This document shows, one piece after another, positions 14,254-43,345 of a stretch of 43,345 nucleotides of DNA. Each line of letters starts with the position of its first letter. Position 1 is the stretch's first letter. Origin of the DNA: Cochliopodium minus (Eukaryota > Discosea > Himatismenida > Cochliopodiidae); contig JAMYWO010000311.1 in NCBI GenBank assembly GCA_024220525.1, positions 1 to 43,345 on the forward strand. Reading direction: 5' to 3'. The position numbers were made by a program, and so were the translations under genes. The notes under the pieces were generated by a model. The model made no database searches, was not told where the DNA came from, and saw nothing but the letters and a program-made list of their open reading frames with translations.

Positions 14254-15914
14254 TTATATATTGGAGAAAAAACTATCAAAATCAAAATTGTTTTGATCTT
14301 GAACTTCCGTGAGATCATTATTGTTATTTTCTTGATATATAACTTCTTCTTCCATTATCAAAAGATTTTTGAAAGAATTGTTTAGATCATAGGATATTTC
14401 GATGAAATTGCTATTCTCTTGAGTATCATTATTCTGTATATGTTGATTATAAAGATTAAGATCTTGAATAAAATTGGAATTATTAATTAATAATGAATTG
14501 TTAGGGTTGGATTCAGTGAAATGTTTTTCCTTCTTTTTGCTTTTATTCCCAAAAACCTCATTGATGAAGAAAGGAGGATTTTCATTTGCATTACAATAGA
14601 ATTTGAGCTCTCTGGAAGTACATGCAGGAGGAAGATCTTTCTCCAAAACTTTATATTGGAGAATCTTATCAACATACAATATCCCCCAACTTGGAAGCTG
14701 ATCATTTTTGTTCTTTTCGAAGAAATAGAAGTTTAAAAATTTATAAAAAATTAAATTTTTTTTTTTTTTTATTAATTTTTTACTATATACGTTATAAAAT
14801 GATAACTTAGGTTAACATAATGACCCTTTTATGAAAGGCAGAGTTAGTTTATTTCTGGAAAAAAAATGTTGAGATATTTTTTATTTACTTGAGAGTGAAG
14901 CATGAAAGCTGAAGGATGTCTGCCTTTGAAATGAGGAAACATGATATCCTCCCTTCTTTCTATTTCAAGAGGAATATTCTTTTTGTCTACTTCATAGTGG
15001 TGTTCGGAAGGGAAGAGATCAGGAAAGAAAACATTGCAAAGATTGTTGTATCCAAGCAATTCAAGAAATTCTTTAGATGCATCTAAAATGAACGATTCAA
15101 CTTTAAAATCAAGATGTAAGTTATTCATTGTTTATATTTGTTTAAAAGTATTTATTAACCTGGTTGTTTCATCTTGAAATCTTTTGAGATTGTTGTAGTG
15201 AAAGTAAGTTTTTTGATCATCCAGCAATTATTACCTATATTTTAAGAGACATCCATAATTATTTTTTATTCAAAAGGGAAATTTAAATTCTCTTAAAATT
15301 AATTCTTTAAATTTCAGTCAACTGGAAAGTGGAAAAAATAATCTTTTGAATTTTTTACTCTTATATTGAGGTTGTTCCATCAAATTTTTTAAGGCTTCAT
15401 TTTTAAGTTTCAATATTTCGATTTCTTTTTGTAAAGATATATTCTTCATGACTAGTTGATCCTTAGAATCTAAATATAAAAAAATATTGGTAAATTTTGA
15501 TGTATAATTGAGATTATATCATTATAGATGGGTAAAACTGTTTTTTTGTTTGATTGAAATTATACCTGATAATTTATTTCCACACATATTGCAAAATATC
15601 GCATTTATATCTTGTTTTGAATCACATTTATCACATTTGATTTCAATGCCTGCCATATACCTCTTTAAATCTTCATTTTTTTGTTTTTTATTTTTTTCGT
15701 TTTCAGAATTATTTTTTTTCTTTTCATCTGATCTTCCTGATGGTTTTCTTTTGTTACTATTATACACACATTCCACCTTGTTTCTTTGGCAGTTGTAACA
15801 GGGCTGCTCTCCACTACATTTTTTATGATGTTTTTTGCAGTTTATACAAGCTATTGGTACTCTTGTTCTGTTATTAACTATTTGGTTACTTTCATTGCCA
15901 ATTTCTTTCATCAA
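14254..15914 (-). CDS. Array gene 7: Zn2Cys6-zinc ribbon-PAS transcription factor
   Basis: Start ATG 15914. The first exon (15914 to about 15568) holds the whole zinc cluster unspliced: ACINC, KKHHKK, C-SGEQP-C-YN-C, QRNKVE-C. Then come a basic linker in which the AT-hook is degenerate (KRKPSGRSDEKKK, no GRP core), and the zinc ribbon CDKC/FCNMCG. The next exon (about 15473-15345) gives the helix LVMKNISLQKEIEILKLKNEAL. PAS residues are FILDASKEFLELLGYNNL, then FFPDLFPSEHH, IPLEIERRED and HPSAFMLHSQ in one uninterrupted exon (about 15109-14890). The last exon reads ILYVDKILQYKVLEKDLPP and CNANENPP without the introns that split this block in genes 1-3. An acidic Asn-rich tail ends NNFDFDSFFSNI. 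Fewer introns than its neighbours suggest intron loss, or later gain in the others. Confidence 0.88.
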
Positions 15915-16175
15915 AATTTAATTTTTTTTTTTGTTTTTTATTTTTTTAATAGATTTAATGATTTATGTTTGTTTCAGCTAAATCCAACAGTGAATAAAAA
16001 CGTAATCCTTTTTATTTGATTTAGAATAGTCAAATATTATCAAATAAATGCAAATTAAAAAAGTAAAAATACAAAGAAAATTAATGGAAATTAAATTAAA
16101 AACAACTTCTCAAAAAAGAATTTTCAAAAACGAAATAAAAGATAAATAAATAAATAATATCATTTTTTTTTAATC

Positions 16176-18334
16176 TTAATCGAAATCAAAAATATTATCA
16201 AAATTAAAATTGTTATTTTCGGTAGTGTTAAATTGAATTGATAAAGATTCACTTTCTTCATTCTTAATAATGAGCTCCATATCTATATCATCATTGGAAC
16301 CCAAAAAAGAAGAGATAGGAGTAGGAATGGAACTAAGTGGAGAATTATCAACGAAATCATTTCTAGAAGGAGAAAAGTTTAAAAGATTAATATTATCAAA
16401 ATTGAAACTATTAAAACTGTTGTTAAGATTAGGATGATTGTTTTGATTTTCATCCAAAAATGTATTATGAACAATATTAATGTTGGGAGTGTTGTTGGTT
16501 CCATAGTTGTTAAAGAGCTTTTCGTACTGATCTTTTTTCATGTAAAAACCTTTTTTGGTGTGCTTTTCGACAATTTTCTCCATGAAATCAGTGACTTTGT
16601 AGCTTTTTTTGTGTTGAAAGTTGGAGAGATCATTGTTACTTCCAAAACACAATTTTAGATATTGAGCAAAAGATTTCGGAGGTATATCATCTTCATCTAT
16701 GTTTGTTTTTAGTATCTTTTCTATAATCTTTATGGATAAAAAAATTAATTAATAAAATTAATAAAAGTTTTCAATTTTTCTGATTTTTTTTTTTTTGATT
16801 TTTTTTTTTTACTATAACACCCGTAGATGGTCTACAAGTGAAAAGATCCTAATATAAATATTAAAAACAAGAATTAATATAATGAGAAAATAAATTACGA
16901 GATAAGCAAAAAACTTGAATGCAATTTCCAAACATTTTCCCTTTTAAAAATATTCAATTAAATTTTTATTTTAAAATTATTTTTATTTTTTACATTCAAT
17001 TAAATTTAAATTTTTATTTTTTCAATTATTTATTTTACATTGCTATGTCGAATGATGGAGGAGGGATAGTATCCAGTGAGGTATGGTGTTTTGAGACCAT
17101 CAATTATTTCAATCTCAAATGGAGCTTTACGTTTGTCCACAACCATATGATGTTTTTTAGGAACAAGATCTTTTTAAAAGGAATTTTTTTTTATTTTTTT
17201 TTGCTTATTTTTTATGTAATATTTGATTTTCATTCTTTTATTCTTTTATTCTTTTATTTTTTTATTCTTTTATTTTTTATTTTTTTTTATTTATTTAATT
17301 TATTTTTAAATTTTTATTTTTTATTTTTTTATTCTTTATTTTTTATTATATTTGTTTATTTTTTATTTTTTATTGTTTAAATTATTTTTTTGCCTGGAAA
17401 ATAAATATTTTTTAACGATTGGTATCCAAATAAATGGGCAAGTGAAGGAGATGAATCCAAAACAAAGGCGGGAACTGCGTGAATTTAATTTTGGAATAAA
17501 CAAACGAAATGAGAATAAATTTTTGAGCGGATCTCTTTTTAATTTATTATTTACCAGGATGATACATTTTATCACCTTTTGGTGGTGACAAAACTTGAAG
17601 CATCCATAATTGAGAAGAAACTAAAAATTTTTTTAAAAATGATTTATTAATTTAATAAGATTATAATAAAAAGAGATTTAAAATTGAATTTATGATTATA
17701 AAGAAAATTAAAATTTCTTGAATGATATTACATGAATAATCTTTCAATTCAATTATTTTCATCAATGATTCGTTTTTTCTTCTTAGCATATCGACTTCAT
17801 TTTGAAGATTTTTATTTTTCTTAACGAGATGATCCAAAGAATTTATTATGCTGCCACATTGATTGCAAAATTTTGCAATCACATCCTGTATCGAATTGCA
17901 TTTGCCACATTTGAAATCTATCTCCTCAATATCTCCTCCTGATGTTGATTTATTCTTTTGTTTCTTTGGTATCACATCCTTTGTTTTGGGTCTTCCCAAC
18001 TTTCTTTTGCTCGTATCATCTATACATTCCAATTTTCTCTTTGCACCTATTTTCAATTGATTAGAAGGATTAAAAGAGGATAATGAGATAAAGAATTGAA
18101 TGTGTTTAAAATAATTACAATATGAACAAGGTTTGTTATGATCACATTTCTTATGGTTTTTTCTGATTTTAAAATAGAATTCAAAATGAATTTGTGGGAG
18201 ATTATTTATTTTTTTTTTTTTAAAATCTTTTACTTGCAATTTACGCAAGCAAATACTTTGATTTTTTTCTTTTGATTGGGATGGCAGAATTTATTATTTT
18301 CATTGTCGATATTGATCAAGTTCATTTCTATCAT
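16176..18334 (-). CDS. Array gene 6: Zn2Cys6-AT-hook-zinc ribbon-coiled coil-PAS transcription factor
   Basis: Start ATG 18334 (MIEMNLINIDNENN). The zinc cluster is split over three exons: ACVNCK, KNHKKCDHNKPCSYC, AKRKLEC. It is followed by KRKLGRPKTKD (AT-hook-like), the ribbon CGKCNSIQD/FCNQCG and the zipper-like helix LQNEVDMLRRKNESLMKI, all in the exon at about 18050-17731. Then come SSQLWMLQVLSPPKGDKM, VPAFVLDSSPSLAHLFGY, DLVPKKHHMVVDKRKAPF and TGYYPSSIIRHSN, which form the PAS module (17600-17050). The intron after NIYFP begins GC rather than GT (17393-17392); sister genes have GT there. The last exon (about 16730-16176) has IPPKSFAQYLKLCFG and an Asn-rich acidic tail ending FNFDNIFDFD. 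Closest relative is gene 5: they share codons, intron positions and intron sequence. Confidence 0.88.
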
Positions 18335-18507
18335 TTTTTTTTTTTATTAAATCCTTTCAATTAACCCACTAAAAAATAATATGGTCTATTCACAAATGAG
18401 ATTGAGATTTTTATGAGTATAACTTTTTTTTTTTTTTCAGAATTTTTTTTCTCTGAATTTTTTTTCTTCAAAATAAATCTTGGAAAGCGAAGACATGTTT
18501 TATTAAT

Positions 18508-20531
18508 TCAATCAAAATCTAAAATATTATCAAAATTAAAAGTATTGTTATCATTCTCATTGTTAGTGGTCAAATAATTACTGTCTTCGTTCTTCGAGAA
18601 GGGATCAGAAAATTTTAAATCATTATTAGAATTCAAAGAAGAGTAAGAATTGGAATTAAGTGAAAAAGAAGAATTGAGAGAAGAATTATCTACGAAATCA
18701 TTTCTAGAAGGAGAAAAGTTCAAAAGATTAATATTATCTAAACTATGAAGACTATTAAAACTGTTGTTAAGATTAAGATGATTGTTTTGATTTTCATCCA
18801 AACAAGTATTGTAAACATTATTAATGTTGGAAGTGTTGTTAGTTCCGTGGTTTACATCTTGATCATTATTGATGTAAAAACTTTTTTTGGTGTACTCTTC
18901 TACGATATTCTCGATGAAATCATTTTCTTTGTAGTTCTTTTTGTGTTTATAGTTGGAAAGATCGTTCCTACTTCCAAAACACAATTTTAGATATTGAGCA
19001 AAAGATTTTGGAGGTATTTTATCTTCATCAATGTTTGTTTTTATCACCTTTTCTACAATCTTTTATGTATAATTGGAAAATAATGGTAAAATTATGGTAA
19101 AACGGGATTTTTTTTTTGATTTTATTTTTTATTTTACTAAAATACCAGTAGACGGTTTGAAAGTTGAAGGATCCTAATTTAAAAAAATATTAAAAACAAG
19201 AATCAAAAAATAACCAGAAAAAAAATTACAAAATATGCTATGAACTTGTAAGCAATTTCCAAACATTTTCCCTTTCAAAATATTATATAACAATTTTTTA
19301 ATTTAATTTTTATTTTTTTATTTTATATTTTTACATTGCTTTGGAGAAAGATTGAGGAGGGATGGTATCCAGTGAAATATGGTGTTGTTAGACCATCTAC
19401 TATTTCTATTTCAAAAGGAGCTTTACGTTTATCCATAATCACGTGATGCTCCTTTGGAACAAGATCTTACAAAAAAAAAATGAGATTTAATTTTATCTAA
19501 AGAATTATTTTTTAATTTATTTTGTTTTTAATTTATTTTATTTTATTTTCATTTTTCAATTTTCTTATGTATTATTTTTTAATTTATTTTGTTTTTAATT
19601 TATATATTTTTTTTATTTTGATTTTTTACCTGGAAAATAAATATTTTTTAAGGATTGGTATCCCAATAAATTAGCAAGTGAAGGAGATGATTCCAAAACA
19701 AAAGCAGGAACTATATCAATTTAATTTTGAATCAATAAATGAAATTGGATTTATTTTTTTTTAATTTACCAGGATGATGCATTTTATCATCTTTTCGAGG
19801 TGCAACTCTTTGAAGCATCCACAATTGAGAAGAGACTGAAAATTTAGAAAAAGAATTGATTTTTTAATGAGATTATAAAAAAGAGATTTAAAATTGAATT
19901 AATCATTTCAAAAAAAAGAAAAAGAAAATTTAAATTCTAATAGATATTACATGAATAATCTCTCAATTCAATAATTTTCATTAATGATTCGTTTTTTCTT
20001 CTCAACATATCAACCTCATTTTGAAGAGAGATATTCTTCATAACTAGATGATCGGGTAATTTATCTCCACATTGATTGCAAAATTTGGCCATCACATCCT
20101 GTATTGAATTGCATTTGCCACATTTGAAATCAATATCTGTGCATCCTGATTTATTTCTCTGTTTCTTTGATATATCCAATTTGGGTCTTCCCATCTTTCT
20201 TTTATTCATATCTTCTAAACATTCCAATTTTCTCTTTACACCTATTTTCAATTGATTAGAAGGATAAAAAGAGGTTAATGAGTACATAAAGATAAAGAAT
20301 TGAAATATTCAGGAAAAATAAAAAATTACAGTATGAACAAGGTTTGTTATGATCACATTTCTTATGGTTTTTTCTGATTTTAATATTGAATTCATTATGA
20401 ATTTGAAGGAGATTATTTATTTTTTTTGAAATCTTTTACTTGCAATTTATGCATGCAAATACTTTGCTATTATTCTTTTGATTCTTATTTGATTGATTAT
20501 TTTGATTATTAAGATTAATAATTGTGATCAT
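18508..20531 (-). CDS. Array gene 5: Zn2Cys6-AT-hook-zinc ribbon-coiled coil-PAS transcription factor
   Basis: Start ATG 20531 (MITIINLNNQNNQSN). Zinc cluster ACINCK / KNHKKCDHNKPCSYC / VKRKLEC over three exons; KRKMGRPKLD; ribbon CGKCNSIQD/FCNQCG; helix LQNEVDMLRRKNESLMKI (exon about 20261-19949). The PAS module runs from SSQLWMLQRVAPRKDDKM through VPAFVLESSPSLANLLGY, DLVPKEHHVIMDKRKAPF and TGYHPSSIFLQSN to CLEIAYKFIAYF (about 19845-19220). The last exon starts IVEKVIKTNIDEDKIPPK and carries an Asn/Ser-rich tail ending FNFDNILDFD with a TGA stop at 18508. By family analogy it binds DNA as a dimer through the cluster and senses a ligand or partner through PAS; neither is shown by sequence alone. 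Confidence 0.88.
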
Positions 20532-20766
20532 TTTTTTTTATTTATTCTAATTCAATTTAAATTTATATCACTGATATTTCAACACATCCTTTTATCAGAT
20601 ATACTTTAAACAAGTTTTTATCTAGTTAATTAAAAAGGAAATAAGAATTTAAAAACATAAATTTATTTTAAGAGAAAAAAAAATAGTCTGAAAATATTTT
20701 TCTTTTAAAATGTATTATAAAAAAATAAATAATTAAATCAAATTTAAATTTATTTACAGTTTTTAT

Positions 20767-22671
20767 TCAATCAAAATTAAAAATATTATCGAAATCAAAA
20801 TTATTTTTTGGTGTTGACAAAGAACCACAATCTCCACTCTGAATGATGTGCTCCGAAAAATTATCGAGTGAACTAACAGAAGGAGAAAAAGAAGGAGAAG
20901 AAGTAAAATTATCAACAAAATCATTTCTGTTTGATGAAAAATTGAAAAGATTATTAAAGCTGTTATCAAGATGATTGTTTAGACCAAAATTATCCTCTAA
21001 AGAAATATTATCATTAATATTTCTATTTTTATTGAGAAAATGATCTTCGACTACTTTATCCATGAAATTAATTTCTCTTAGAGGAGGTTTTTGTTTGGGT
21101 TTCTTTATGTAGAGTTTTGGATAAATGTACTGAGGGGCCTCTTTGTTGTTTCCAAAATAAAGTTTGATATTTTTTGCGAAAGATTTAGGAGGTATGCTAC
21201 TTTCATCTAAATTCTTTTCTTTTATTTTCTCAACTATCAATACAGCCATCTTTTCAAAAAAAAATAAAAAAATTAAATTTTCCCAGAATTATTTTTTTTT
21301 AAAAAAAAAATTTTTTTGTTAGATACCGATGGTTTGTAAGTCACAGAATCCTTAACAAAAAAAAAAAAGAAAAATTTAAAAAAATTTTCAAAAGTAAAAA
21401 AAGAAAATTTACGAAATATGCAATGAATCTGTAGGCGATTTCAAAATATTTTCCCTATTAATTTTTTAAATTTTTTTTTTTCAATATATTCTTTAAGAAT
21501 GAATTTTTATTTTTACGTTACTGTGGCGAATGACTGCGGAGGGATGGTATCCAGTCAGGTAAGGACTTTCTAATCCCTCCACCACTTCAATCTCGAAAGT
21601 AGCTTTAATGCGTTTATCCACAGTGATTCTATGTTCTTTAGGGAAAAGATCTTCCCAAAAAAAAAATTAAATAAAAAAAAAAAATTAAATATAAAAATTG
21701 TCTAATTTTTTTTATTTTTAAAGAAAAAATTTCTTTTCATTATTTTTTTACCTGGAAAATAAATGTTGGACAAACTTTGGTATCCCAATAAATTTACTAG
21801 CGGAGGAGAAGCTTCTAATACAAAAGCGGGCACTATTTTCAAAGGTTTTATTAAAAATTTTTGGATAATAAATCTTATTTTTTTTTTTATTACCTGGATG
21901 ATGCATTTTCTCGTATTGAGGAGGTAATCTTTGAAGCATCCATAATTGTGAATTAACTAAAAGATGTAAAAAAATATATTGTAGATTCATTAATTTGAAT
22001 TGATTAATTTGGAAGAGATTTAAAATTGAATCTTTTTTTTCAAAATAAATTATATGGGAAAGGAAAATTAAAAATTTATACATGTATGGTCTTTCAATTC
22101 TATTATTTTCAACAATGATTCATTTTTCCTCTTTAATGTTTCAACTTGATTTTGAAGATTTTTATTCTTCATAACTAGATGATTCGTAGAATTAATTATA
22201 TTTCCACATTGATTACAAAATCTTGCTACTATATCTTGTATCGAATTGCATTTCTCACATTTGAATTCCATCTCCCTATCTTCTTTTTTCATTAATTTAT
22301 TTTCTACAATATCCACATTTTTCTGTTTCTTTTCTGTAATATCCTTTTTTGGTCTACCCATCTTTCTTTTATTTGTATTTTCTGCACATTCTAATTTTCT
22401 TTTCACACCTTATTGATTATAAGAAGGGAAATAATAAAAGGGATAATTAATGTAGAAGTATCATAATTGTTACAAAATGAACATGGTTTCTTCATATCAC
22501 ATTTCTTATGGTTTTTCCTTTATTAAATGTTATATTTGCACAAATAAAATGAGTGATTATAAATATTTACTTGCAATTTAAACATGCAACAACTTTTTTA
22601 TTCTTGATATCTTTTGTTTGAATCGTATTATTTTTTGTCAAATGATTAAGTGGTTCCTTATTCTCTTCCAT
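20767..22671 (-). CDS. Array gene 4: Zn2Cys6-AT-hook-zinc ribbon-coiled coil-PAS transcription factor
   Basis: Start ATG 22671 (MEENKEPLNHLTKNN). The zinc cluster is VACLNCK / KNHKKCDMKKPCSFC / VKRKLEC over three exons. One exon (about 22408-22082) then holds KRKMGRPKKD, CEKCNSIQD/FCNQCG and the helix LQNQVETLKRKNESLLKI. The PAS module reads NSQLWMLQRLPPQYEKM, VPAFVLEASPPLVNLLGY, DLFPKEHRITVDKR, TGYHPSAVIRHSN and YFEIAYRFIAYF. The final exon, 21249-20767, begins MAVLIVEKIKEKNLDESS and continues to an acidic Asn-rich tail ending NFDFDNIFNFD with TGA. The upstream gap to gene 3 is only about 107 bp, so its promoter must be very compact or lie within the neighbour. Confidence 0.88.
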
Positions 22672-22777
22672 TATTTTTTTTTTTTAATATAAATCTTTTA
22701 ATTTTTTTGACTTTGTTTCTCAAACTTTATATTCAACCAAAATTTTGTTAACAAAGATTCTTGTTTAATTAATGATC

Positions 22778-24835
22778 TCAAAAATTAAAAAAATTGTTAT
22801 CAAAATCCACACTATTTGGAGAATAAAATATATTTCCATCAATTTCATTGTTATCATTGCTTGAGGATAGATTTGTTGTGATAGCTGGCAAACCAGAGTT
22901 TAATATTGGTATGTAATTCCTACGCCAGCTGAATCTTTTGAGACTTTCACTTTGTAAAAAAAAAAGTTACTTTTAAAAAAAAAAATTTGAAAAAAAAATA
23001 AAATAATTTTTTTACGGTGGCTCGTTAGTTGTGTCACTATTTTTTAAATTAAAAAAAATTTTTTAAAAAAGAATTTATTTTTACCAATAAAACTTGAATT
23101 CATTTGGTTCCAGAAGAGGCGGAACAAAGTTAAAATCAATGTTGAGATCATGTATTTTGTCAATCATCAACATACCTTTTGAAAAAGTTTTTAAAATTTT
23201 GAAGAAGAATTTATTTTTTTTTACTGAAAACTGGTTTCTGTAGGTTGTTATCCTTAAATTAGAACAAGAATAATTAAAATGAAGTGTAATAAAGAGTAAA
23301 AAAATTTTAAAAAAAAATACTCCATAGCCAATAAACTTGCAAGACAAATGTATCAAATGTCCCTGAAAAATAAATTGAAAAAAAAAAATGAGGAAAAAAG
23401 AAGGAAATGAATAATAATTTTACCTTGGCATGCCTGAAATAAATTGAAGGAAATCTTCCAAGCATCTTGTGATTTGTCAATCCTTCTTCTTTTATTATTT
23501 CTATTGAAAATTTTCCTTTTTCACTGACAGAATGTTGTTCTTTGGGAATGAGATCTTTTGAAATAATAAAAAATTAAAATTGATGGTAAAAAAAATTAAA
23601 AAATAAAAAAATAAAAAAATAAAAAGAGATAAATTAAAATTTTTAATGAAAATAAAAAAAATACCCAAAAAATTAACGTTTGTTAAATTTTTATAACCAA
23701 GTAAATTACAAAAAGGATCTGACATCTCCATTATAAATGAAGGTGCTTTTATTAAAAATAAAAAATGAACAAATTTCAAAAATAAAAGCAAAAATAACCA
23801 GGACTATAGATTTTATCGTCATTTGGGATCACCTTAATAAAATTTTCATTAATTTGATTTAAATCAAAAAATTTAGAATTATTACAACTTTCAGTAAAAC
23901 CCACATTTGGCTTGCTTTTTTCAAAAAAATAAATTAAAAAATAAAAATTAAAATAAAATCTGTTTCATATTTTTTTGTATTTTTAAAATTTTACAAGTAT
24001 ATTCCCTCATTTTTAAAATTCCCATCAAAGCCTCATTTTTGTTCTTTAAAATTTCCACTTCTTTTAGTAATTTTATGTTCTTCAAAATCATCATATCTGG
24101 CAGTTTATTTCCTTTTGAAGAAAAATTTGTGAAAAACAAAAAAAATTTAAAAGAAAGAAATTTTTTTAGTTTACCACATTGACTGCAAAATTTGGCTAAA
24201 TTAAAAAAAAAATTTTTTTTTGGAAGGAAATTATTTTATCAAATAGCATATTTTTTTACCTGAATTATCTTGTTGTTTCGAGTTACATTTGTTGCACTTT
24301 ACTTCTATATCTCTCAAATCAATTGTTACAATATTTGTTTCTCCCTTCAATTTCTTGTCTGATTTATTTAAATGTAAATTAAATGAATGAATTCAAATTC
24401 AAACCTAAGGGTTTTTTTGGTCTTCCAACAGGTTTCCTTTTAATATTTTCATAACATTCTATTTCTCTTTGTATACAATATGAACAGGGTCTTTTTCCAT
24501 CACACTATGATTTAAGAAATTAAAATTGTATTTCTCATCATTTTTTTTGATTTCTTTATTTTTTTACCTTTTTATGATTTTTTCTGATAGATTGTTATTT
24601 GATTAAAATGGTTGAATTATTGAATAGGGATATTAATTTATTTTGAAATGATTTACTTGCAATTCATGCATGCAACAGTTTTTCTTTTTTCTTTCTTTAT
24701 ATCATTTGAATTATTTGTATTATTTGGGAAATTATTTGGGTTATTGGTATTATATAAGTTTGGGAAATTATTTCCATTATTATAATTTGGATTCATGTTG
24801 TTTATATTGTGGGTTATATCGTTATTTGTGTTCAT
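22778..24835 (-). CDS. Array gene 3: Zn2Cys6-AT-hook-zinc ribbon-coiled coil-PAS transcription factor
   Basis: Start ATG 24835. An Asn-rich leader ends KKEKRKTVACMNCK. A 16-nt exon (about 24571-24586) gives KNHKK, and the next gives C-DGKRP-C-SY-C-IQREIE-C and RKPVGRPKKP. Further exons give CNKCNSKQQ, then AKFCSQCG on a 21-nt exon, then helix LLKEVEILKNKNEALMGI. The PAS module follows in small exons: VIPNDDKIYSP, APSFIMEMSDPFCNLLGY, DLIPKEQHSVSEKGKFSI, LGRFPSIYFRHAKGHLIHL, CKFIGYGV, then MLMIDKIHDLNIDFNFVPP and FKFYW. The last exon (about 22951-22778) contains ESLKRFSWRRNYIP and ends VDFDNNFFNF with TGA. Its first 60 residues and the introns there are almost identical to those of genes 1 and 2. 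Confidence 0.88.
24599..24680 (-). repeat. Shared intron/exon block of array genes 1-3
   Basis: The intron before the 16-nt exon and the end of exon 1 recur almost unchanged at 26960-27052 and 29240-29324, including non-coding words such as ATTGAATAGGGATATTAA and TGCAATTCATGCATGCAAC. They mark a homogenised segment covering the zinc-cluster-coding half of the three genes. Confidence 0.85.
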
Positions 24836-24943
24836 TTTCTCAATTTTTTTTTTATATTTTAATTTCTGAGAAAATCAAATTTGAAATCAAATATAAATAC
24901 CAAAGAATTTAATAATACAAAAAAATGTTAAAAAAGTATTTTA

Positions 24944-27204
24944 TCAAAAATTAAAAAAATAATTATCGACATCTCCATTGTTCGGAGAATAGAAGACTTC
25001 ACCACTACTATTATTTGGGTCAACTCTCGAAAGAAGAAAAGTATTGAGGTTATTACTGTTGTAGATCTGAACATTGAGAGGACTATTATCATTATTGTTA
25101 TTGTTGTTAATGTTGACATTGTTTTGAAAATTGTTATTGTTAATATTGATGTTGCCGTTATGATTATTGTTTGTTTGGTTGTAATAACCTGGATTTGAAT
25201 TGGGGATGTTGTAATTGCGTCTCCAGTTGAATTTTTTGATTGGTTCACTTGGAATAAATAAAAAAAAAAAAAATTTTTAAAACAAAAATTTAAAATTAAA
25301 ATTAAAATAATTACGGAGGTTCATCGCTTGGATTACTATTTAAAAAATTAAAAAAAAGATTTTAATTAAAAACGAGTTGAAAAATGGAAATGAATTTACC
25401 AATGAAATTTGAATACACTATGATCAATAAAAGGAGGGACAAAGTTTAAATCTATGTTGAGATCTAAGATCTTTTCTATCAATAACATACCTAATGAGGT
25501 AGAAATGTTAAAATATAACATAAAATAAATAACAAGAAAATTTACCAAAAGATGGTTTTTTTGTTTTCGAGTCCTATTAAATGAAAAATTTAAAAATTAC
25601 AATAAAAATTTAATAAAAATGAATAAAGCATACTCCATAAGCAATAAACTTGCAAGATAAATGAATTAAGTGCCCCTGAAAGAAAATAAAAATCCAAAAA
25701 AAAAGTTTCAATCTTTAAAAAAGAAATGAAAGTGGAAAATATTACCTTTGAATGCCTGAAATACACGGAAGGGAAATTTCCTACCATCTTGGGGCTTATC
25801 AAACCCTCTTCCTTTACTACATCGATTGAAATTTTTTCTCTATCTTTTACATAGTGTTGTTCTTTAGGAATGAGATCTTATTAAAGAAATAGTGAATTTA
25901 AAATAAATAGATCAAAAAAAAATTTAAAAAATAAATAGATCTAAATAAAATAATTAAAAAAAAATTAAATTTTGTTTAATTTGAAAAAAAAGAAAAAATA
26001 CCTGGGAAATAAACGTTTCTTAAACTATGATACCCAAGTAAACTACAAAAAGGATCAGAAGCTTCCAATATAAATGAGGGAACTATTTAAATAGATAAAT
26101 AAAATAAATTAAAAAAATAAAAAAATTTTAAAAGGGAAAAATTAAATGATTACTTGGGCTGTGGAATTTGTCGTCACATGGAATCATCTAACTCCAAAAA
26201 TATTTGTATGAAAAAAAATTTAATAAATATTTTATTTGAAAAAATAAATTACAATTTTCAGCAATATCCACATTTGGCTTGCTGATACGAAAAAAAAACA
26301 AAAATAACAAAAATATTCAAGAATTAAAATTAAATGAAATGATAGAAAATTTTATTTTTACAAGTATATTCTCTCATTTTTATTATTCCCATCAAAGCCT
26401 CATTTTTGTTCTTTAAAATTTCCACTTCTTTTTGTAAAATGTTGTTTTTCAAAACAAGTAACTCTGGCAATTTATTTCCTTTGAAAAAATATCTTTAATT
26501 TTATGTTTTTTTTTTAAAAATAAAAAAATTGAATATTACCACATTGGCTGCAAAATTTTGCTAAAAAAAATTTGAGAAAAACAATTATTGCGAAATGTTT
26601 GCAGAGATGTTTTTTAAAATTTTTTACCGCCATTGTCTTGTTTTGAATCACATTTATCACATTTTACTTCTAAATTTCCTAAATCTATTGTTATATTGTT
26701 CGGATCGTTCTTTTGTTTTTTATCTGAGTTTGATGAGAAGAAACACAAAAGTTTAAAAAGCGAATTAAAACAAAAAATTTGAACCTAAGGGTTTTTTTGG
26801 CCTTCCAACAGGTTTTCTTTTATTATTTTCAAAACATTCTATTTTTCTTTGAATACAATATGAACAGGGTCTTTTTCCATCACACTATGATTTTGGAAAT
26901 TAAAATTGTATTCCTCATCATTTTTTTTATTTTTTTACCTTTTTATGATTTTTTCTGAATTGATTGTTATTTGATTAAAATGGATGAATTATTGAATAGG
27001 GATATTAATTTATTTTGAAATGATTTACTTGCAATTCATGCATGCAACTGTTTTTCTTTTTTCTTTCTTTGTATCATTTGAATTATTTGTATTATTTGGG
27101 AAATTATTCGTGTTATTGGTATTATTTGAGTTTAGGAAATTATTTCCATTATTATAATTTGGATTCATGTTGTTCATATTTTGGGCTTCGGTATTATTGT
27201 TCAT
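24944..27204 (-). CDS. Array gene 2: Zn2Cys6-AT-hook-zinc ribbon-coiled coil-PAS transcription factor
   Basis: Start ATG 27204 (MNNNTEAQNMNNMNPN). Exon 1 (27204 to about 27030) ends TVACMNCK. A 16-nt exon gives KNHKK, then C-DGKRP-C-SY-C-IQRKIE-C and a GRPKKP AT-hook-like motif (about 26886-26787). Ribbon halves CDKCDSKQD (about 26724-26631) and KFCSQCG, helix LQKEVEILKNKNEALMGI. PAS: MIPCDDKFHSP, VPSFILEASDPFCSLLGY, DLIPKEQHYVKDREKISI, VGNFPSVYFRHSKGHLIHL, CKFIAYGV, LIEKILDLNIDFNFVPPF and FKFHW. The last exon (about 25245-24944) begins EPIKKFNWRRNYNIP, has a long Asn-rich run and ends GDVDNYFFNF with TGA at 24944. The long open frame on the same strand within that exon starting at 25248 is a shadow of this one. 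Confidence 0.88.
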
Positions 27205-27428
27205 TTTCTCAATTTTTTTATTTTTTTTTTTTATAAATTTATATTAAGTTTCAAAAAAAATAAAGTTAAATTAGATCTCACATTAGTTTGAATAAACAAA
27301 TTGGTTCATTAAAAAGATTTAAAAAGTTGAATTTTTTATTTTTGAGGAATTATAATTAATAATAATCCCGAAAAAAAATCCCTCATTAAGTTTTAAAAAA
27401 TTCCTCTTTATTTTGTTCTGTTTGACCT

Positions 27429-29476
27429 TTAAATATTAGAAAAATAACTATCATTATTGTTATTAGGTTGAAAATTAATTCCCTTGTTATTATTGCTATC
27501 AATCCTCTGAAGAAAAAAATTGTTGAGATTATTACTGTTATAGATCTGAACATTCATCCCATTATTATCGTTATTATTGTTATTAATGTTGACATTATTG
27601 TTGAAACTGTTATTGTTATTAAAATTGTTGGAGAATTGATATGTTTGGTTGGAATTTTGAGAATTTACCAAAGGATTGTACTCTCTATTCAAATTGAATC
27701 TTCTGAGACTTTCACTGGAATGTTTTAGTCAGATAAAAAGGAAAAAAAAACAAATTTAAAAAAAGAAATTTACGGAGGTTCTTCGTTTGCATTACTACAA
27801 TTATAAAATAATTAAAATTTAAAAATAGAAAAAAAAAGAGAACAAATTACCAATAAAACCTAAATTCACTCCTATTCATTGGCTCCAAGATAATATCACT
27901 TACATTGAGATCAAGAATTTTTTCTACAAACAAAATTGCTTTAAAGAAATAATAAAGTTAAAAATTAAAAAGAATAAAAAAAAAAAATTACAAAAACTTG
28001 GTTGTCTTGTTTCCATGTCCTTTGGTAAATAAAAAAGTAAAAAATTTTAAAAAAATATTTTTTTAAATTAAGTTTTTTTTTTTACTAAATAACCAATAAA
28101 CCTACAAGAAAGTTTCAATAAGTGCCCCTTAGCATGTTTAAAATATACACATGGTAGTTTTCCAACCATCTTGGGGTTGATTAACCCTTCTTCTTTAACA
28201 ATATCCACTGTCACTTTCCCTCTCTCAGAAGTGGAATGTTGTTCCTTTGGTATGAGATCTTTTTGAAAGATTTGAAAATTTAAAATAAAAAATTGGAAAA
28301 AAATACCAGGAAAATAAAGATTTGATAAACTTTGGTATCCAAGCAAATTAGAAAAAGGTTCAGACGCTTCCAATACAAAAGAAGGAACTTTTATTTTTAA
28401 CAAACATTTTTTTTTGAATGAGAAATAGAAATAAAGTGTTTTTAAAGAATTTACCTGGATGATATATTTTGTCATCATTTGGAATCACCTAAAAAAAATA
28501 ATAAATGAAAAAAAAAAAAAAAAAATTATTACCAATTTTTGTAAAACCCACATTTGACTTGCTATTTAATTGTTTTAATAAAAAAATGAATAATTTAAAT
28601 CAAAAAAAAAATGTTTACAAGTGTTCTCCCTCATTTCCAAAACACTCATCAAAGCCTCGTTTTTCTTTCTTAACATATCTACTTCTTTTTGTAATTCCAA
28701 ATGTTTGAATATCAATGATTCTGGCATTTTGTTTCCTACACGAAAAAAAATAATTTTTTGGATTATTTTTTTTTTCAATATTATTTAAGAGACTAAAGAA
28801 ATTTTTTTTGTTTACCACATTGACTACAAAATTTTGCTTTTGAAAAAAATTTAATTCAGAATATTAGTTAGTAATAATTCGTCTATGACTTACCATTACT
28901 TTGTTGTTTTGTTTCACATTTATCGCATTTTGCTTCCAATTCTCCCAAATTTACTGAAATGTTATCTTTGTCACTTTTCTGTTTCTTTTCTGCATTATTT
29001 ATTTTATGAATTTCAAGAAAATAAAATAATTAAGTGAAATTTTGAACCTGATGGTTTTTTTGGTCTTCCAACAGGTTTTCTTTTAACATTTTCAACACAT
29101 TCTATTTTTCTTTGAATACAATATGAACAGGGTCTTTTTCCATCACACTAGGATTTTGGAAATTAAAATTGTATTTCTCATCATTTTTTTTGATTTCTTT
29201 ATTTTTTTACCTTTTTATGATTTTTTCTGAATTGATTGTTATTTGATTAAAATGGATGAATTATTGAATAGGGATATTAATTTATTTTGAAATGATTTAC
29301 TTGCAATTCATGCATGCAACTGTTTTTCTTTTTTCTTTCTTTGTATCATTTGAATTATTTATATTATTTGAGAAATTATTTGTGTTATTATTATTATTTA
29401 AGTTTTGGAAATTATTTCCATTATTATAATTTGGATTCATGTTCGTATTTTGAATTGTATCTGTATCAAAGTTCAT
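27429..29476 (-). CDS. Array gene 1: Zn2Cys6-AT-hook-zinc ribbon-coiled coil-PAS transcription factor
   Basis: Start ATG 29476. Exons seen: 29476-29301 (Asn-rich, TVACMNCK), 29226-29211 (16 nt), 29147-29048 (C-DGKRP-C-SY-C-IQRKIE-C, RKPVGRPKKP), 28989-28894 (CDKCETKQQ), 28836-28816 (AKFCSQCG) and 28735-28619 (LQKEVDMLRKKNEALMSV). PAS exons follow: VIPNDDKIYHP, VPSFVLEASEPFSNLLGY, DLIPKEQHSTSERGKVTV, VGKLPCVYFKHAKGHLLKL, CRFIGYL, LFVEKILDLNVSDIILEP, FRFYW and CNANEEPP. The last exon (about 27717-27429) has ESLRRFNLNREYNP, an Asn-rich run and the end NNNNDSYFSNI. Zinc cluster plus PAS recalls fungal ERT1/AcuK-type regulators of acetate use and gluconeogenesis; the ribbon and AT-hook are additions. 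The role here is inferred only. Confidence 0.88.
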
Positions 29477-34565: not shown

Positions 34566-37500
34566 TTAATTTGTATTTTTTTTTTTCATTTCTTTTTCGA
34601 GAATCTCGTTTTGTTTTTTTAAAACTTCAATTTGTTGAAGAAGATTTAAAATAGTTTCACTTTCTTGGGTTTTTTTGTTTTGTTCAAGCAATTCCTCAGT
34701 TAAAACTGTTTCTTCATTTTCTTCAGTAGAAGCTTCAGTTCCTTCAGAAAATTCACCAATACAATCTTCAATAGATGAATTGTAATTTTTCTCTTTATAT
34801 TCACCAATACAATCTTCAACAAAAATTTTGCTTTTTCTTTCAATTTCATTGTTACTTAAAAAGTTCCTAAAATCAATTTTGTTGAAAGAATTACTAAAAG
34901 ATTTTTTGATTTTATGAGAGATGGGATTATCAATGTGTTTTTTTTCCTTTCTTTCCACTCTTTTTTGAATGAGATTGAAGAAAATGCCTGGATTATTTTT
35001 TTCAACAAAATTTTTTTCCCTGAAAAAATTAGAAATCGAAGAATTGATGGAATTCAATAATTCCACCATTGGTTGAAAGGAGAACATCTTTAATTTGAAG
35101 ACATTTGGAGTTGAAGAATTTGTATTACCAGGAAGAATTTTGGTTTTAACAACAATTTTCGCTTTTTGATTAGTTGGATCTTCAAAGCAAAGATAAAATC
35201 CATTTTTCCAATAAGCTTCTTTAAGAACTGTACTTTCTTTCAATAAAGATTTTCTTATTCTCATGAAAAGAATGTTTGTCCAAAAACTAATGTCAAATTT
35301 GGTTGAGTATTCGACAATACAATGAGATTTGAGTTCCACTTCATCTAAATTTTGCTTTTGTTTATCTGGTTTTTGTTTGGGAAACAAGAGAGGAACAAAG
35401 TAACGCCTTTGTTCTTTACTATTTGTTGTGTTGACGATGAATCCCAGACAATTCAAAACTTTGATTAAGAATGATCTTTTCTCCTTGTTTTCTTTAGAAA
35501 TAAATTCGCAATTAAGAACGTTGTTGATGATTGAGTTTCGGGAGGAATTGTCTATCACATGAATGTGCTGTGTCAAATCAACGAATTTTTCATTTTTTAC
35601 TTTTTCATAAATTTCCGTTTTTTGGGTGGAAATGAATTCTTCCAAGATATTTTGGTAACCCTCTTTGTAAATCATGTTTTGTACATCGGATAGTCTATTG
35701 ACGTATTCAAAGTAGCCCAGTCTTTGTGTAAAACTCTTTTCCTTTATTTCTTTATTTGATTTTTCTTGCATAGGCTCTCCTAAAGAATTCTTCAATTCAT
35801 TCAGAGTATTTTCTACCACTTTTAAGCAAAGATCCCTTTTATAATTATCTCTTTCAAACTTTTTCAATTGTTCAGAAATAAATTGGAGCATTTTCTGTAT
35901 GGCTTTCTTTCCGTAATTGAAAATGGCTCTCGTAATGGAGCCCAACAATTCTGTGTCCGTGATTACAAAATCTTTCAATGCATCCATGTCGAAGTAAACA
36001 ATCAAACCCAATTTGTGGAGATCACACAAAATATGGTTCAAATCTTTCGAAACGTTTTCTTTGAGGTAAGGTTTGAGAGAAGAGATTTTTAAGAAAGTTT
36101 CACCATCCTCCTTCTCCTCCAATCCTCTCATATAAGAGTTCTTATTAGACAAGATGCGAATTTGATTATAAACATTTTTGTGATCAGAGTTAATGTGAAC
36201 GCTGTGCTTTGATCCTTCGTATTGTTCCATCACTTTCTGGATCACTTTAAGATCTTGTTTCTGGTTGCTAATTGAATAAAAAAGGGAAATTTTCCCTTGT
36301 GAAGGATAATCGTAGAAACAATGAAATTTATGATTAGTTTTGGTTTTAAATCTGTTCAATTCTTTTTTTTAAAAAAAAATCAATTATTTTTTATCAATTA
36401 ATTTTTTTTTGATGAATTGTTTTTACCTTCATTGATCTCAAACATTCTTTTTTCTGTTTCTTCTTTTTTTCGTCTTCAACAAACTTTGTTCCAAACAATA
36501 CAATCCTCAAGTTTTTTCCTATCTGTGATTGAAGAAAATGAACCCAATAATCCAATCTATTTTTGGAAACTATCTCTGACACTTCAAAAGACAAATCTAA
36601 CAATAAAAAAAAGACACATTCAGTGCTCATGTAGTGCATGTGTGACAATAGATACTCCTCTTTCCCTGAAAAATCAAAGACAGAAATTGGTTTGTTACTT
36701 TTCTTCATTTTGAACCGGAATACGTCCATTATGTCTGTCATTTGATATTCCTTTCTCCTTGGAGATTTCATTTCTTTGTTTTTCTTATTTAATTCAAAAA
36801 ACTTGCAAATTTTTTAAAAAAGATTATAAATTTATAATTTTAAAATTTTTATTATTTTTACCTTGAATTTTAACAAAGATTTTTCATAGTCGTCCTGTCC
36901 AATAATGCAAATTCTCAGATTCTCTATTCCAATATCAACTTGTTCCTTTGGTGTCTTCTTTTCTCTTTTTGTAATTATTTTTTTCAAAGGGGAGAAAAAC
37001 TTTGGGCTTTCTATTTTCTCGTAAGATTTTGCTCTATTATGTGTAGGCTTTCCTTTTTTAACTTTATATTACTTAAAAAAGAAAATAATAGGAGAATTAC
37101 TTAAGCTTTGTAATTTGGGAGATTTGAATGTTTTTATTTCCCCGCGATTCTTTGAATCTTTCTTTGAGAATTTTAAAAATTCATTTTCTCCAATTTTATT
37201 CTCAATGTTGGTGTTGTTCTGTCGATTATCTTAAATAATTGAATAATATAAATAAATTAATAATACTTGAGTATTTTACTTGTATTCTCCAAAGAGAAAG
37301 TATCTTCTGTTTTTAAAGTGATGATCTCTTTGTTTTTTATTTTATCGGTAATATCCGTCAATTCAAATTCCTAATCAGATCAATCAAATAAGTTGAAAAA
37401 ATGAAGAGAAAGCATTACCAAACCATTGTCTTTCAATTTATTTTTCATTACTGAAAAAATTTCGTGGAAATTTTTGTTTTCGAGTATCAAATCAATGAAC

Positions 37501-38926
37501 ATTTTAGATTCAATGCTAATCTTGTCCAATTTTTCAGCATTAATGATTAGAAACTTCACCATTTTGTCGGAGACTTCTTGATTCTCGAATAAAAGTTGAA
37601 AAATGGATTTCGCCTCTTTATTTTCCAATCCTAGATCGCATTTGTTATCGACAAAACATTGAATGGTGTCCCAAGAAATATTGTTGAACTGGCAAATGAT
37701 ATGGAGAGGTGTATTTTTGTTCTCATCACGATAATTAATATCAGACTTGTCTTCTATCAACTTTTTGATGATTTTAATCAAGGTTGATTCTCCCAAGCAA
37801 ATTAAAGAAATTTTTTTCTCTAAAGAATGGCGTTCTCTCATCTGACTTGCTAATATCTCGCTCTTTGTGGCAGATTTCACTCTGTTGATGTAAATACTCA
37901 AAGTATCTTGTTCCTTGATATCTTTTAGATCGAAATGTTCCTTGAGGTAGATTTTGTTAATTTCCTCATGAAGTAGAACCAAAATTTCAAAGTCCTTTGA
38001 ACTCTTTAATTCTTCATTTTCAACTAAAGATATCGTATTGCATTCTTCGTTCAAGACATGAACTATTACCCTAAAGACAAAGGAAAAAGATTCATAAATT
38101 TGAGAGACATCTTCCCTTTGATGAATTCTAACATGTGATGAAAAAGAATCAATCTCTTGTTTTTTTGTTCTCCATTAAAAGAAAGTATCATCTCTTTCTT
38201 GTACTTGATCTCTTCTTGGCAAAATTTTACTGATTCCTCTAGTAAACTGGTTAAAAGGGAACATCCATTCTTTTCATTATTCTTGCATTTTAGTCCAGAT
38301 ATTGCCCAAAAGCAATTTTGAAGGCAATTATCTTTGATCGAAAGATATTTTGTTGGAAATTCATCCATTCCCAAGATATCTTCTGAATTCGTATCCAATA
38401 TCATCAATATATGACCATGTAAGATTTTATTCAAAATTTTAATTATTTCCTCAATATCCAGCTCAAATTCTTTTTCCTTCTCGTCTATATAGGTGCATAG
38501 ATAATGTCTTCCTTCTCTTTTTTGAACATCACCTGTATAATACAGAACAAGAAGTTTTGATCCATTCTTTTTAGAGATATATTCTATTCTATTCTCCAGT
38601 AGATCCAAAATTCTGGATTTTCTAGCATCTTTGCCAACAAATTGAATTTTCTCCCTCGCTTTAAAAATAGATTGAATTTTATTTATATTATTTTCTGAAA
38701 AAGTAGTTTCTTCATCACAACCAATGGTAATAAGAGATGTATGTTCGTAAATTTTTGTTAAATTCTCTATCTTTTCAACTTTTTCGTAATTTAAAAACTC
38801 TTTTTCTTCGAACATCTTTTGGTTATTCAAAATTTCAATCAATAATTGAATCAAATCTGAATGATCAATTATTAGAATGTAAACACCCGTATGAAACTTG
38901 TTTTTTTTTTTTATTTTATTTATCAT
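34566..38926 (-). CDS. Pseudo-caspase / ankyrin / degenerate Roc-COR protein (Roco family)
   Basis: Start ATG 38926. Exons 38926-38133, 38070-37419, 37370-37280, 37229-37101, 37061-36862 and 36750-36427 join in phase to 730 codons. The last exon (about 36360-34566) adds about 597 residues; that final junction does not resolve in phase by hand. Residues 10-264 follow the caspase/metacaspase fold order: GVYILIIDHSDL, DARKSRILDLLENRI, LLVLYYTGD (family YYSGHG), HYLCTYIDE, HILMILDTNSED (family LILDTCHSG), WAISGLKC and LLTSLLEES. Both catalytic positions are replaced (His by Asp, Cys by Asn). Ankyrin repeats (about 360-440) include NKNTPLHIICQ. The Roc domain has GQDDYEKS (P-loop, one Gly lost), ISVFDFSGKEEYL (G3) and RIVLFGTKF (G4 region). 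COR is marked by LGLIVYFDMDALKDFVITD near 870. The C-terminus has VEDCIGE/IEDCIGE twin units and a coiled coil (LLQQIEVLKKQNEILEKE). Confidence 0.8.
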
Positions 38927-39139: not shown

Positions 39140-42100
39140 TTAAAGTTTAAGAACATCCTTAATTCTTTGTTCAACATGATGAACGGCGGAAATATCTTCA
39201 ACAGTACCAGGGACTTTGTATTCTTTCTTGTTGGCGATGTTTCTCATGACACCTCTCAAGATCTTTCCAGACTTTGTCTTAGGAAGATGATCAACAAATA
39301 CAATCTTGGAAACTGTAGAAATGGCGCCAATCTTTTCTCTGACTTGTTGGGAGAGTTCCGAACTGATATTATCTCCTTTTTCAACTCCATTTTTCAAAAC
39401 AACAATAGCACAAGGAGATTCACCTAAAAATAAAAAAATTTAAAAAATAAAAAAAAAAACAAGAAAAAATAAATAAAGAAAAAAAATTCAAATTAATTGA
39501 CTTAAATAATAAAAAAACAATAAATTAAAAAATTTAAAATAAATAAAATGAAAATTTATTTTTACCTTTCAATTCATCGTTAATACCAAATACAGCAGAC
39601 TCAGCAACATTGTGGTTTGCGTTAATAACTTCCTCAATAGCACCAGTAGAAAGTCTGTGTCCAGAGACGTTGATGACATCATCAACGCGGGTCATGATGT
39701 GGAGATAACCATCCTCATCAATGAAACCAGCATCCCCTGTAGTGTAATACCCTGGATGTTGGTCAAAATATTTGGTTTTAAATCCCTTGTCGTTTTTCCA
39801 CAAAGTAGTGAATGTACCAGGAGGCAATGGTTCTAAAAATAAAAAAAATAAAAAAAAAAAATGTAAAAATGTTTCAAATAATTAACAATAATCAAAAAAT
39901 AAAAATAAAAATTAATAAATAATTAAAGTGGAATAAAACGTATTTTTTATAAATGATTACCTTTTACACAAACTTCCCCAACTTCACCATGAGGCAATAC
40001 TTTATTTTCGTCATTCAAAATTTGGATGTTGTATCCAGGAACAGGAAATGAGCCTTTAAAAAAAAAAGAAAAGAAAATATTAAAAACAAAAAACAAAATC
40101 TAAAATATTCAAAAAATAAATTTAAATTTAAAGATAAAACAAAAAAAATAAAAATTTGAAAATTTGAAAGTAAATAGAAAAAAAAAGTTTACAAGAACCA
40201 GGTTTAGATTTAAGTTCATTTTCATAGTATCCGAGGCAAAAGGTACCCATTGGAAAGCCTGTCTCAGTTTGCCACCATTGGTCCAAGACACGTTTTTTGA
40301 CGTGAGAACCAGTCCATTCGATGATAGAAGGATCTAAAAATGAATAAAATCAAAAAAATGAAAAAAAATACTAAAAAAAAAATTTAAAAAAAAAAATTTG
40401 AAAATAAAAAAATAAAATATTTTAAAAGATTAAATAATGATTGATAAAAATAAATTTCTTTACCAGCACGTTCTCCAACTAAAAATAAACTGTCAAGACC
40501 TGACAAATTATGTTTTTTAATGAATTCTCCGTTCGGATCTTCTTTTCTGATTGCCCTCATAGCAGTAGGAGAAGTAACCAAGGTGTGAACATTATAATCC
40601 TCAACAACTCTCCAAAAAGCTCCTGCGTCAGGTGTACCAATAGGCTAATAAGAAAGGAAAAAAGAATTTAAAATTTTAAAAAAAATAAAAAAAAAATAAT
40701 TAAAAAATTCAAATATTTGAAAACAAAATTTCTTTTAAGATTAAAAAATTAAAAAAATTAATTGAAAAAAACTGAAAAATAATAAAAAAACTGAAATTAT
40801 GATTAAAAAAACTGAAAATTTTTTTTTTTTACCTTTCCCTCATACATAACAGAGGTACAACCACCCAACAAAGGACCATAAACCATGTAGCTGTGCCCAA
40901 CAACCCAACCGATATCACTAGAAGCCCAAAAGACATCACCAGGCTTGCAATCAAAGACAGCAGGGACAGACCACTTCAAAGAGACGCAAGCACCTGCAGT
41001 GTCTCTAATAACGCCCTTTGGATCTCCTGTTGTGCCCGATGTGTAGAGGATGTAGAGAGGGTGATTGGAGTCGACGGGAACACATCCTTCGATTACAGGG
41101 TAGTTTTTCTCGTTAAGGAGGAGCTTCCAGTCGTAGTCTCTTTTTCCCATTTCCACTCTGAAGTTGAGCTCTTCTCTGTTCAAGATAATGCATTTTTCAG
41201 GTTTGTGGGATGACAAGTTGATTGCTTTGTCTAGCAATGGCTAAAAGAATTAAAAAGAAAAGTTGAAAAAGGCTAAATAAGTTAACGTTAAAAATGAAAA
41301 AAAAGAGGTTTCAAAAAAGATTATAAAAAGAAAAAACATCATTCTTTTTAAACAATAATCCTTTGTTTCTTATTAATTTTTTTTTTACCTTGTAATGTAT
41401 TTCTCCTTTTGGTTCGACACTTCCAGAGCATGAAATCACGAATTTTGCTTCACTGTGTTGGATTCTTTGTGCGAGTTGTTCAGGTGCAAACCCTCCGAAC
41501 ACGACGGAATGGATTGCTCCTATTCTTGCGCATGATAACATTGCTATTGCTGCTTCGGGGGAATTAGGCATACTTTTGAAAAAAAGATTAATTCAAATTC
41601 AAATATTAAATGATTTATTAATTGCATATCTTGTTAATGAATATAGAATAAGGAAATATATGTTTGTTTTATCTTTATAAGGATAGATTTATCACTTGTA
41701 ATATCAAATGATGTCAAAAATAATGTTGATCTTTACTCAATTTATTATCAAAAGATCTATTTTTAAACATAAAGATTATACTAACCACAAATTATGAATA
41801 AATAATAGATATGGTTGACTAATAATAACAAGTTTCTTTATTTTTTACTAGATAACTGCTCTATCTCCTTTCTTCAATCCCATTTTGTGTAATACTCCAG
41901 AAAAATTCTTCACTTCTTCCAATAATTGATTGTATGTTAATTGCTTCTTTGTTTTCTATAAATTATAAGAGGAATATTAATGTCAATGAAATTATAAAGG
42001 AAAAAATATTTAATCTTTAAAGAATTAATAGATCATATATGAGTATATTCTTATTCTAATTTTCTTTGTATGTTATATTATAAGCTCATTCTGTTTTAAT

Positions 42101-42772: not shown

Positions 42773-43345
42773 CTAATTTTTCTTAAAGAGAATATCCTTA
42801 ATTTTGTGTTCAACATGATGAACAGCGGAAATGTCCTCAACAGTACCTGGGACCTTATATTCTCTACCATTAGCCATACTTTTCATCAAAGCCCTCAAAA
42901 TCTTTCCAGACTTGGTCTTAGGAAGATGATCGACGTAAATGAACTTTGAAACGGTGGAAATTGCTCCAATTTTTTCTCTGATTTGTTGGGAGAGTTCCGA
43001 GTTCAATTTATCACTTGGATGGACTCCATTTTTCAAAACAATAATGGCACAAGGCGCTTCACCTATATAATAAGAATAAAAAATAAATTAAAAAAATAAA
43101 AATTTAAATAAATAAAATAAAAACAAATAAATAAAAAAATGAAAAAAAAAAATAATTTTATTTTTTACCTTTCAATTCATCGTTAATACCAATAACAGCA
43201 GACTCAGAAATGTTTTTGTTTGCGTTAATTACTTCCTCAATAGCACCAGTAGAAAGTCTATGGCTTGCGACGTTGATGACATCATCAACGCGGGTCATGA
43301 TGTGGAGATAACCATCCTCATCAATGAAACCAGCATCCCCTGTAG
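42773..43345 (-). CDS. Propionyl/acetyl-CoA synthetase copy C, C-terminal end only
   Basis: Exons 43345-43169 (continuing beyond the window) and 43062-42773 encode the last part of a third synthetase sequence, ending KDILFKKN and TAG. It keeps [20 protein letters not shown] and the catalytic-lysine motif [10 protein letters not shown]. The hinge reads NVASHRLSTG where copy B has [10 protein letters not shown], so the conserved Gly is Ser here; this may alter the domain rotation needed for the thioester step (inference). The connecting intron (43063-43168) differs from the corresponding intron in copy B. It is in tandem, same strand, 216 bp from copy B. Confidence 0.93.

Follow-up and report, generated by a model that had tools for sequence, protein, structure and literature searches.

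Roco proteins, recognised by a Roc domain followed by COR, include LRRK2 and DAPK1 and touch on both cell death and immunity. DAPK1 is laid out as kinase, ankyrin repeats, Roc, COR and death domain. Architectural partners recorded across the family are LRR, ANK, TPR, TIR, CARD, death, kinase, helicase, AAA, MBT and SH3 domains (PMC11378527, PMC4104024). A caspase domain is not named among them in the available portions of these two surveys (the word "caspase" occurs 0 times in that of PMC11378527), and the open PMC literature gave no caspase-Roco fusion among the matches listed. Caspase folds that have lost catalytic residues are known from elsewhere. FLIP(L), a multidomain pseudo-caspase with death-effector domains, can form pairs with a working caspase and modulate its activity, according to the available part of its source (PMC7586951). 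Bacterial pseudo-orthocaspases have lost the His-Cys dyad, and some are joined to TPR scaffolds; the accessible portion of the paper describing them names no ankyrin or GTPase partner, with 0 occurrences of either word (PMC6426788).

Here, we analysed a 43,345-base stretch of Cochliopodium minus DNA (the window, contig C308 in our numbering), taken from an assembly whose 598 contigs total 44,654,751 bases. On its minus strand lies what appears, from its sequence, to be a Roco-family gene with a dead, paracaspase-like C14 domain in front, followed by ankyrin repeats, then by a degenerate Roc and a COR of normal appearance (Table 1). We are highly confident in the domain identities as assigned, and the domain order proposed in an earlier note on this DNA (C14-like, ankyrin repeats, Roc, COR) is supported. 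The Roco family itself is well known; the pairing of a dead C14 domain with an ankyrin-Roco protein is absent from both Roco surveys, as far as their available portions go (PMC11378527, PMC4104024). A natural fusion of this type would connect Roco proteins physically, and in a testable way, with signalling of the caspase type.

As in DAPK1-type Roco proteins, the ankyrin repeats stand directly ahead of Roc-COR. Unlike DAPK1, the gene carries a dead C14 domain in front and has lost Roc motifs, and its spliced model contains neither a kinase nor a death domain at E up to 1, and thus not the combination of these two with ankyrin-Roc-COR that marks the DAPK type. The predicted protein would resemble FLIP(L) in carrying, among several domains, a caspase-like one that lacks the catalytic Cys, its fold here being predicted. 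FLIP(L), in contrast, uses death-effector domains (PMC7586951). Any likeness would lie in the way of working, and nothing points to kinship. With the bacterial pseudo-orthocaspases it shares the lost His-Cys dyad.

Table 1. Features of the Roco-type gene in the window
Feature	Position	Strand	Remarks
Roco-type gene	38926 to 34566	minus	open frames
Exon 1 as modelled	38133..38926	minus	unspliced: open up to stop at 38066
Pseudo-caspase (C14-like) domain	38099..38749	minus	residues 60-276 of exon 1; profiles, hhalign
Overlap of exon 1 frame and ankyrin frame	38069..38174	minus	second frame change or odd intron 38132-38071
Ankyrin repeats, exon 2	37539..37775	minus	Ank_2 match below cut-off
Roc domain	36484..36915	minus	exons 5 and 6, intron 36861-36802 between; Pfam Roc 31.6 bits
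A-rich end of exon 6	36427..36480	minus	frame change within, ahead of intron 6 (36426-36362)
Exon 7	34566..36361	minus	COR-A and COR-B like region, polar tail after; no kinase

The caspase-like front end and its catalytic site

The first 59 residues of exon 1 are without a domain match. Searching exon 1 with Pfam gave no caspase domain: the best match was to DUF771 (E 0.021), and the caspase-8 N-terminal model scored at chance level (E 0.33). A genome-wide search with PF00656 (24 matches at 0.001, 28 at 10) also missed exon 1. For this reason, C14 domains found elsewhere in the genome, with the window left out, were used to make profiles over four rounds comprising 3, 28, 30, and 32 sequences. 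Against these, exon 1 scored 22.1, 67.6, 59.4, and 62.6 bits, respectively, when run without the HMMER filters (the default filters drop it in three of the four rounds), while the best of 999 shuffles of exon 1 reached 8.4 bits in any round. Since these profiles include other pseudo-C14 domains, a canonical-only profile was made from 19 C14 domains in which the His and Cys motifs are kept. Exon 1 scored 46.1 bits with this profile and reversed exon 1 scored -6.7, with no shuffle among the top 12 rows (lowest row 5.9 bits). Just one of 144 decoy frames ranked above exon 1 (L061, 99.1 bits), and it is itself a C14 frame outside the 19 profile members; decoys at 39.3 to 9.6 bits also lie within C14 loci. 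Finally, hhalign matched exon 1 to 14 canonical C14 domains with 96.5% probability (E 7e-10).

The profiles and hhalign thus bear out the earlier reading of the N-terminal part as a caspase-like domain, with an extent of residues 60-276. A chance likeness to C14 was rejected via the shuffles and the reversed sequence, and another alpha/beta fold for exon 1 is not favoured. A single-sequence AlphaFold prediction of the N-terminal domain had a pLDDT of 32.5; in a homologue-guided model, residues 1-120 reached a block pLDDT of 80-93. The closest folds to the latter were MALT1 and metacaspases first, and in Foldseek 27 of 27 matches under 1e-3 were MALT1, both being results that the input alignment of C14 proteins favours and that were obtained without a control. 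With that bias noted, the model may add support to the pseudo-caspase call. By sequence, too, MALT1 and metacaspases come out best among solved structures related to the C14 family of this genome (MALT1 E 1.8e-10); they are proteases, whereas the window domain is without the His-Cys dyad.

To compare catalytic positions, 33 C14 stretches from the same genome were aligned with the window, 31 of which cover both catalytic columns. The window domain has Asp at the His position (38530-38528) and Asn at the Cys position (38389-38387), and the two sites read YYTGD and LDTNSED, as the earlier note had them. It lacks the catalytic His and Cys of an active C14 protease. Both residues are present in 23 of the 31 other stretches, which are possible active partners of the kind the earlier note suggested looking for, and are absent as a pair in eight. 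These eight are one domain with Lys/Val at the His/Cys columns (L055), one with His/Ala (L053), a Leu/Arg fragment (L054), the second C14 domain of L006 (His/Asn), and two near-identical loci (L056, L057), each with one His/Asp and one Lys/Glu domain. By eye, a further C14 domain on contig C50 has Ser in place of His and keeps the Cys. A tree of C14 domains groups the window with the pseudo-domains of L006 and L056/L057 (support 88/83, below the tool's star) and gives the window domain the longest end branch.

Ankyrin repeats, Roc and COR

The ankyrin repeats can be located at about 37775-37539, but they are weak: the Pfam cut-off for Ank_2 is 27.3 bits, and the match reaches only 26.4 when the exon is searched and 23.7 when the spliced model is. 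The Roc domain exceeds its Pfam cut-off of 27 in the spliced model. Its P-loop (36900-36877) reads GQDDYEKS and has lost the second P-loop Gly, whereas GxxxxGKT is found in four of five readable paralogues and is lost in that on C50. The paralogue alignment, together with the Pfam score, confirms the earlier description of a Roc with a missing P-loop glycine. The G4 motif (36489-36478) is also altered, and reads TKFV with the Asp lost, compared with TKxD in seven of seven aligned paralogues. The window Roc thus departs from the GTP-binding motifs G1 and G4 of the Roco family and, judged on these motifs, is probably a pseudo-GTPase. Loss of the G1 and G4 motifs alone does not remove a protein from the Roco family.

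Pfam lists no COR in exon 7. At E 0.1, exon 7 matches 33 other places in the genome, some of which are pieces of one gene, and the best match scores 154 bits at 36% identity. Nine paralogue stretches align collinearly with exon 7, their identity to it being 23-35% and 19 columns being invariant, so that the COR predicted after Roc is borne out by paralogy within the genome, and not by Pfam. Roc followed by COR, the arrangement that places a gene in the Roco family, is therefore found here, with the frame between the two broken as assembled. The RCC1/MORN-like Roc-COR-kinase paralogues (C153, C461, C30, C75, C50) have a collinear COR within the same range of identity and share with the window the exon joint after Roc. 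They differ from it at both ends. A kinase was found in four of six paralogue frames scanned (the other two being L018, which is cut by the locus edge, and L023), and none in the window. No C14 front end was found in the flanks of 11 of 12 Roco loci and the sole C14 profile match, at L062, is the neighbouring gene; for most of these loci the sequence scanned ends 1.5 kb upstream of the match, and further front ends may be missed. Beyond the genome, word-limited searches of a large protein database found no homologue of the whole protein at 1e-3 among 7990 scored candidates, and a search with a COR profile gave none among 7994.

Reading frame, splicing and the extent of the gene

The genome is AT-rich (mostly 21-31% GC per kilobase) and its introns are short and of GT-AG type. 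The earlier note implied a single gene with introns at 36426-36360 and 38132-38071; one continuous reading frame was not confirmed for the sequence as assembled, and this splicing was not supported as written. The former intron, rejected as written, actually spans 36426-36362 (65 nt); once it is removed, exons 6 and 7 do not join in frame and the exon 6 frame meets a stop. Paralogues on C153, C186, and C234 close the equivalent exon with ..NNG. Because the same ending is present in the window in another frame, we place a frame change inside the A-rich end of exon 6. The latter intron is doubtful. Its donor is GTTAGA, whilst the other five introns begin with GTAA, and towards the 3' ends of long frames the enrichment is 2.0-fold for GTAA and 1.15-fold for GTTA. 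Its GC content is 31%, compared with 8-17% in four other introns and 27% in intron 2. Furthermore, codon scores are positive, and so coding-like, in both frames across the exon 1/2 joint, so there may be a second frame change here rather than an intron. We see two options for the joint, another change of frame or an odd intron.

Both frame breaks lie near runs of seven A, and assembly error and true decay are both possible as their source. In the case of decay, this would be a former pseudo-caspase-ankyrin Roco gene that recently lost its frame and makes no full-length protein. Such a history would account for the frame change in exon 6, and possibly another at the exon 1/2 joint, and for the loss of both the catalytic site and the nucleotide motifs. 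Moreover, 34 long open frames contain 181 A/T runs of at least seven, all unbroken, which argues that such runs are not generally mis-assembled, with the qualification that the frames were chosen as open. Nevertheless, runs of seven A are places where assemblies also err, and the exons of this gene are long and without stops: none occurs over 286 and 597 codons, for which the chance at the same base composition is ~4e-13 and 1e-23, respectively. We consider decay rather unlikely, yet it is, like an assembly error, a serious rival.

The exon 1/2 joint also bears on whether there might be two adjoining genes, one for the pseudo-caspase with its end at 38066 and one for ankyrin-Roc-COR with its start near 37841. 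Unspliced exon 1 does have its own stops at 38068-38063, the first Met of the downstream frame is at 37841, just ahead of the repeats, and on C461 a gene that contains C14 seems to be distinct from the Roco kinase gene beside it. But the two frames overlap by 106 nt with no AT-rich gap between them, and ~230 nt of coding-like frame precedes the Met at 37841. The stretch from C14 to ankyrin is likewise coding-like at 33% GC, compared with 20% and 14% in the 5' and 3' flanks. Two separate genes are, in our view, very unlikely, and the locus probably encodes one expressed product.

C14 proteins of the genome and a possible adaptor role

C14 and NACHT occur together in one open frame in eight of the 12 C14-bearing frames scanned (L001, L002, L005, L007, L008, L043, L050, L052). 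These frames resemble an NLR-like repertoire carrying a built-in caspase-type effector.

The front module of the window gene has a counterpart on C116, where the exon after a pseudo-C14 exon has ankyrin matches in eight stretches; no Roc was found within the 7 kb read. The C116 and window ankyrin parts are 43% identical over 63 residues. However, the window ankyrin part matches 196 places in the genome, the closest (on C179) at 52%, and common descent of the C116 and window pair therefore does not follow.

Other loci bring related domains close together. At L006 (C42:162844-166254), one strand carries ankyrin repeats and two C14-type domains near each other; the first keeps His and Cys, and in the second, C14-like one Asn replaces Cys. 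The near-identical L056 (C50:51201) and L057 (C50:57597) are copies of a divergent pseudo-C14 frame pair. L062 (C461:12000-19300) comprises a gene of RCC1-Roc-COR-kinase type, a C14-containing frame 360 nt further on, and then a P-loop frame. At L074/L041 (C50:84100-90700), the Ser-for-His C14 domain is ~3.5 kb upstream of the Roco gene without a P-loop, on the same strand. Counting the window, C461, and C50, there are three neighbourhoods that combine C14 and Roco (a plain count).

In Roco proteins COR acts as the dimerising part, and ankyrin repeats are protein-binding modules. By analogy, the COR of the window protein would hold it as a dimer or platform and its ankyrin repeats would bind a partner, while the dead C14 domain would pair with C14 proteases that are active in the cell, for instance the C14-NACHT proteins. 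Pairing would then hold, time or divert protease activity, as FLIP(L) does with caspase-8. Taken as a whole, this mechanism, in which a Roco platform would present a FLIP-like adaptor or decoy to active C14 proteases, is possible, although we put it somewhat below an even chance. The more general proposal of the earlier note, that the protein could serve immunity or a process like cell death as a scaffold or decoy, is consistent with the C14-NACHT frames and the other pseudo-C14 domains.

Several findings favour the adaptor or decoy reading, namely the C14 identity and lost catalytic residues of exon 1, the lost Roc motifs, the COR paralogy, the long stop-free exons, the coding-like C14-ankyrin stretch, the pseudo-C14 and ankyrin pair on C116, the active-looking and pseudo-C14 pair at L006, the 23 candidate partners, and the precedents of FLIP(L) (PMC7586951) and of pseudo-orthocaspases joined to TPR repeats (PMC6426788). 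Against it stand the exon 6 frame change, the doubtful exon 1/2 joint, the lack of a whole-protein homologue in the search above, the longest branch of the C14 tree, the fact that the C116 ankyrin part is not the closest in the genome, and a structural model whose alignment was made of C14 proteins.

The dead domain could instead belong to a general scaffold, binding a non-caspase partner or a peptide and having nothing to do with C14 proteases of the cell. This genome abounds in ankyrin repeats, and in the available text on the bacterial pseudo-orthocaspases some sit on TPR scaffolds with a caspase partner not shown (PMC6426788). Yet this genome is rich in C14 domains able to pair, and pairing does occur in the pseudo-caspase FLIP(L), as the accessible part of its source describes (PMC7586951), so that we regard an unconnected scaffold as rather improbable. 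The fullest form of the adaptor reading would be a double-dead adaptor, pseudo-caspase and pseudo-GTPase Roco in one, keeping many C14-NACHT executioners under control as a FLIP-like checkpoint that arose independently of animals, through a direct Roco-caspase link; we think it doubtful that all of this holds. A natural fusion would also show a pseudo-caspase regulator outside animals in a C14-NACHT-rich genome, and would bear on how death switches are restrained.

Elsewhere in the window, the Roco-type gene adjoins an acyl-CoA synthetase-like gene with its stop at 39140, as read from the window. By eye, several similar acyl-CoA synthetase-like copies are present on the minus strand at both window ends (60-1108, 39140-41592, and 42776-43087). 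A series of related frames occupies 15525-28484, also on the minus strand, the first of which has a Cys-rich motif that we take to be like a binuclear zinc cluster.
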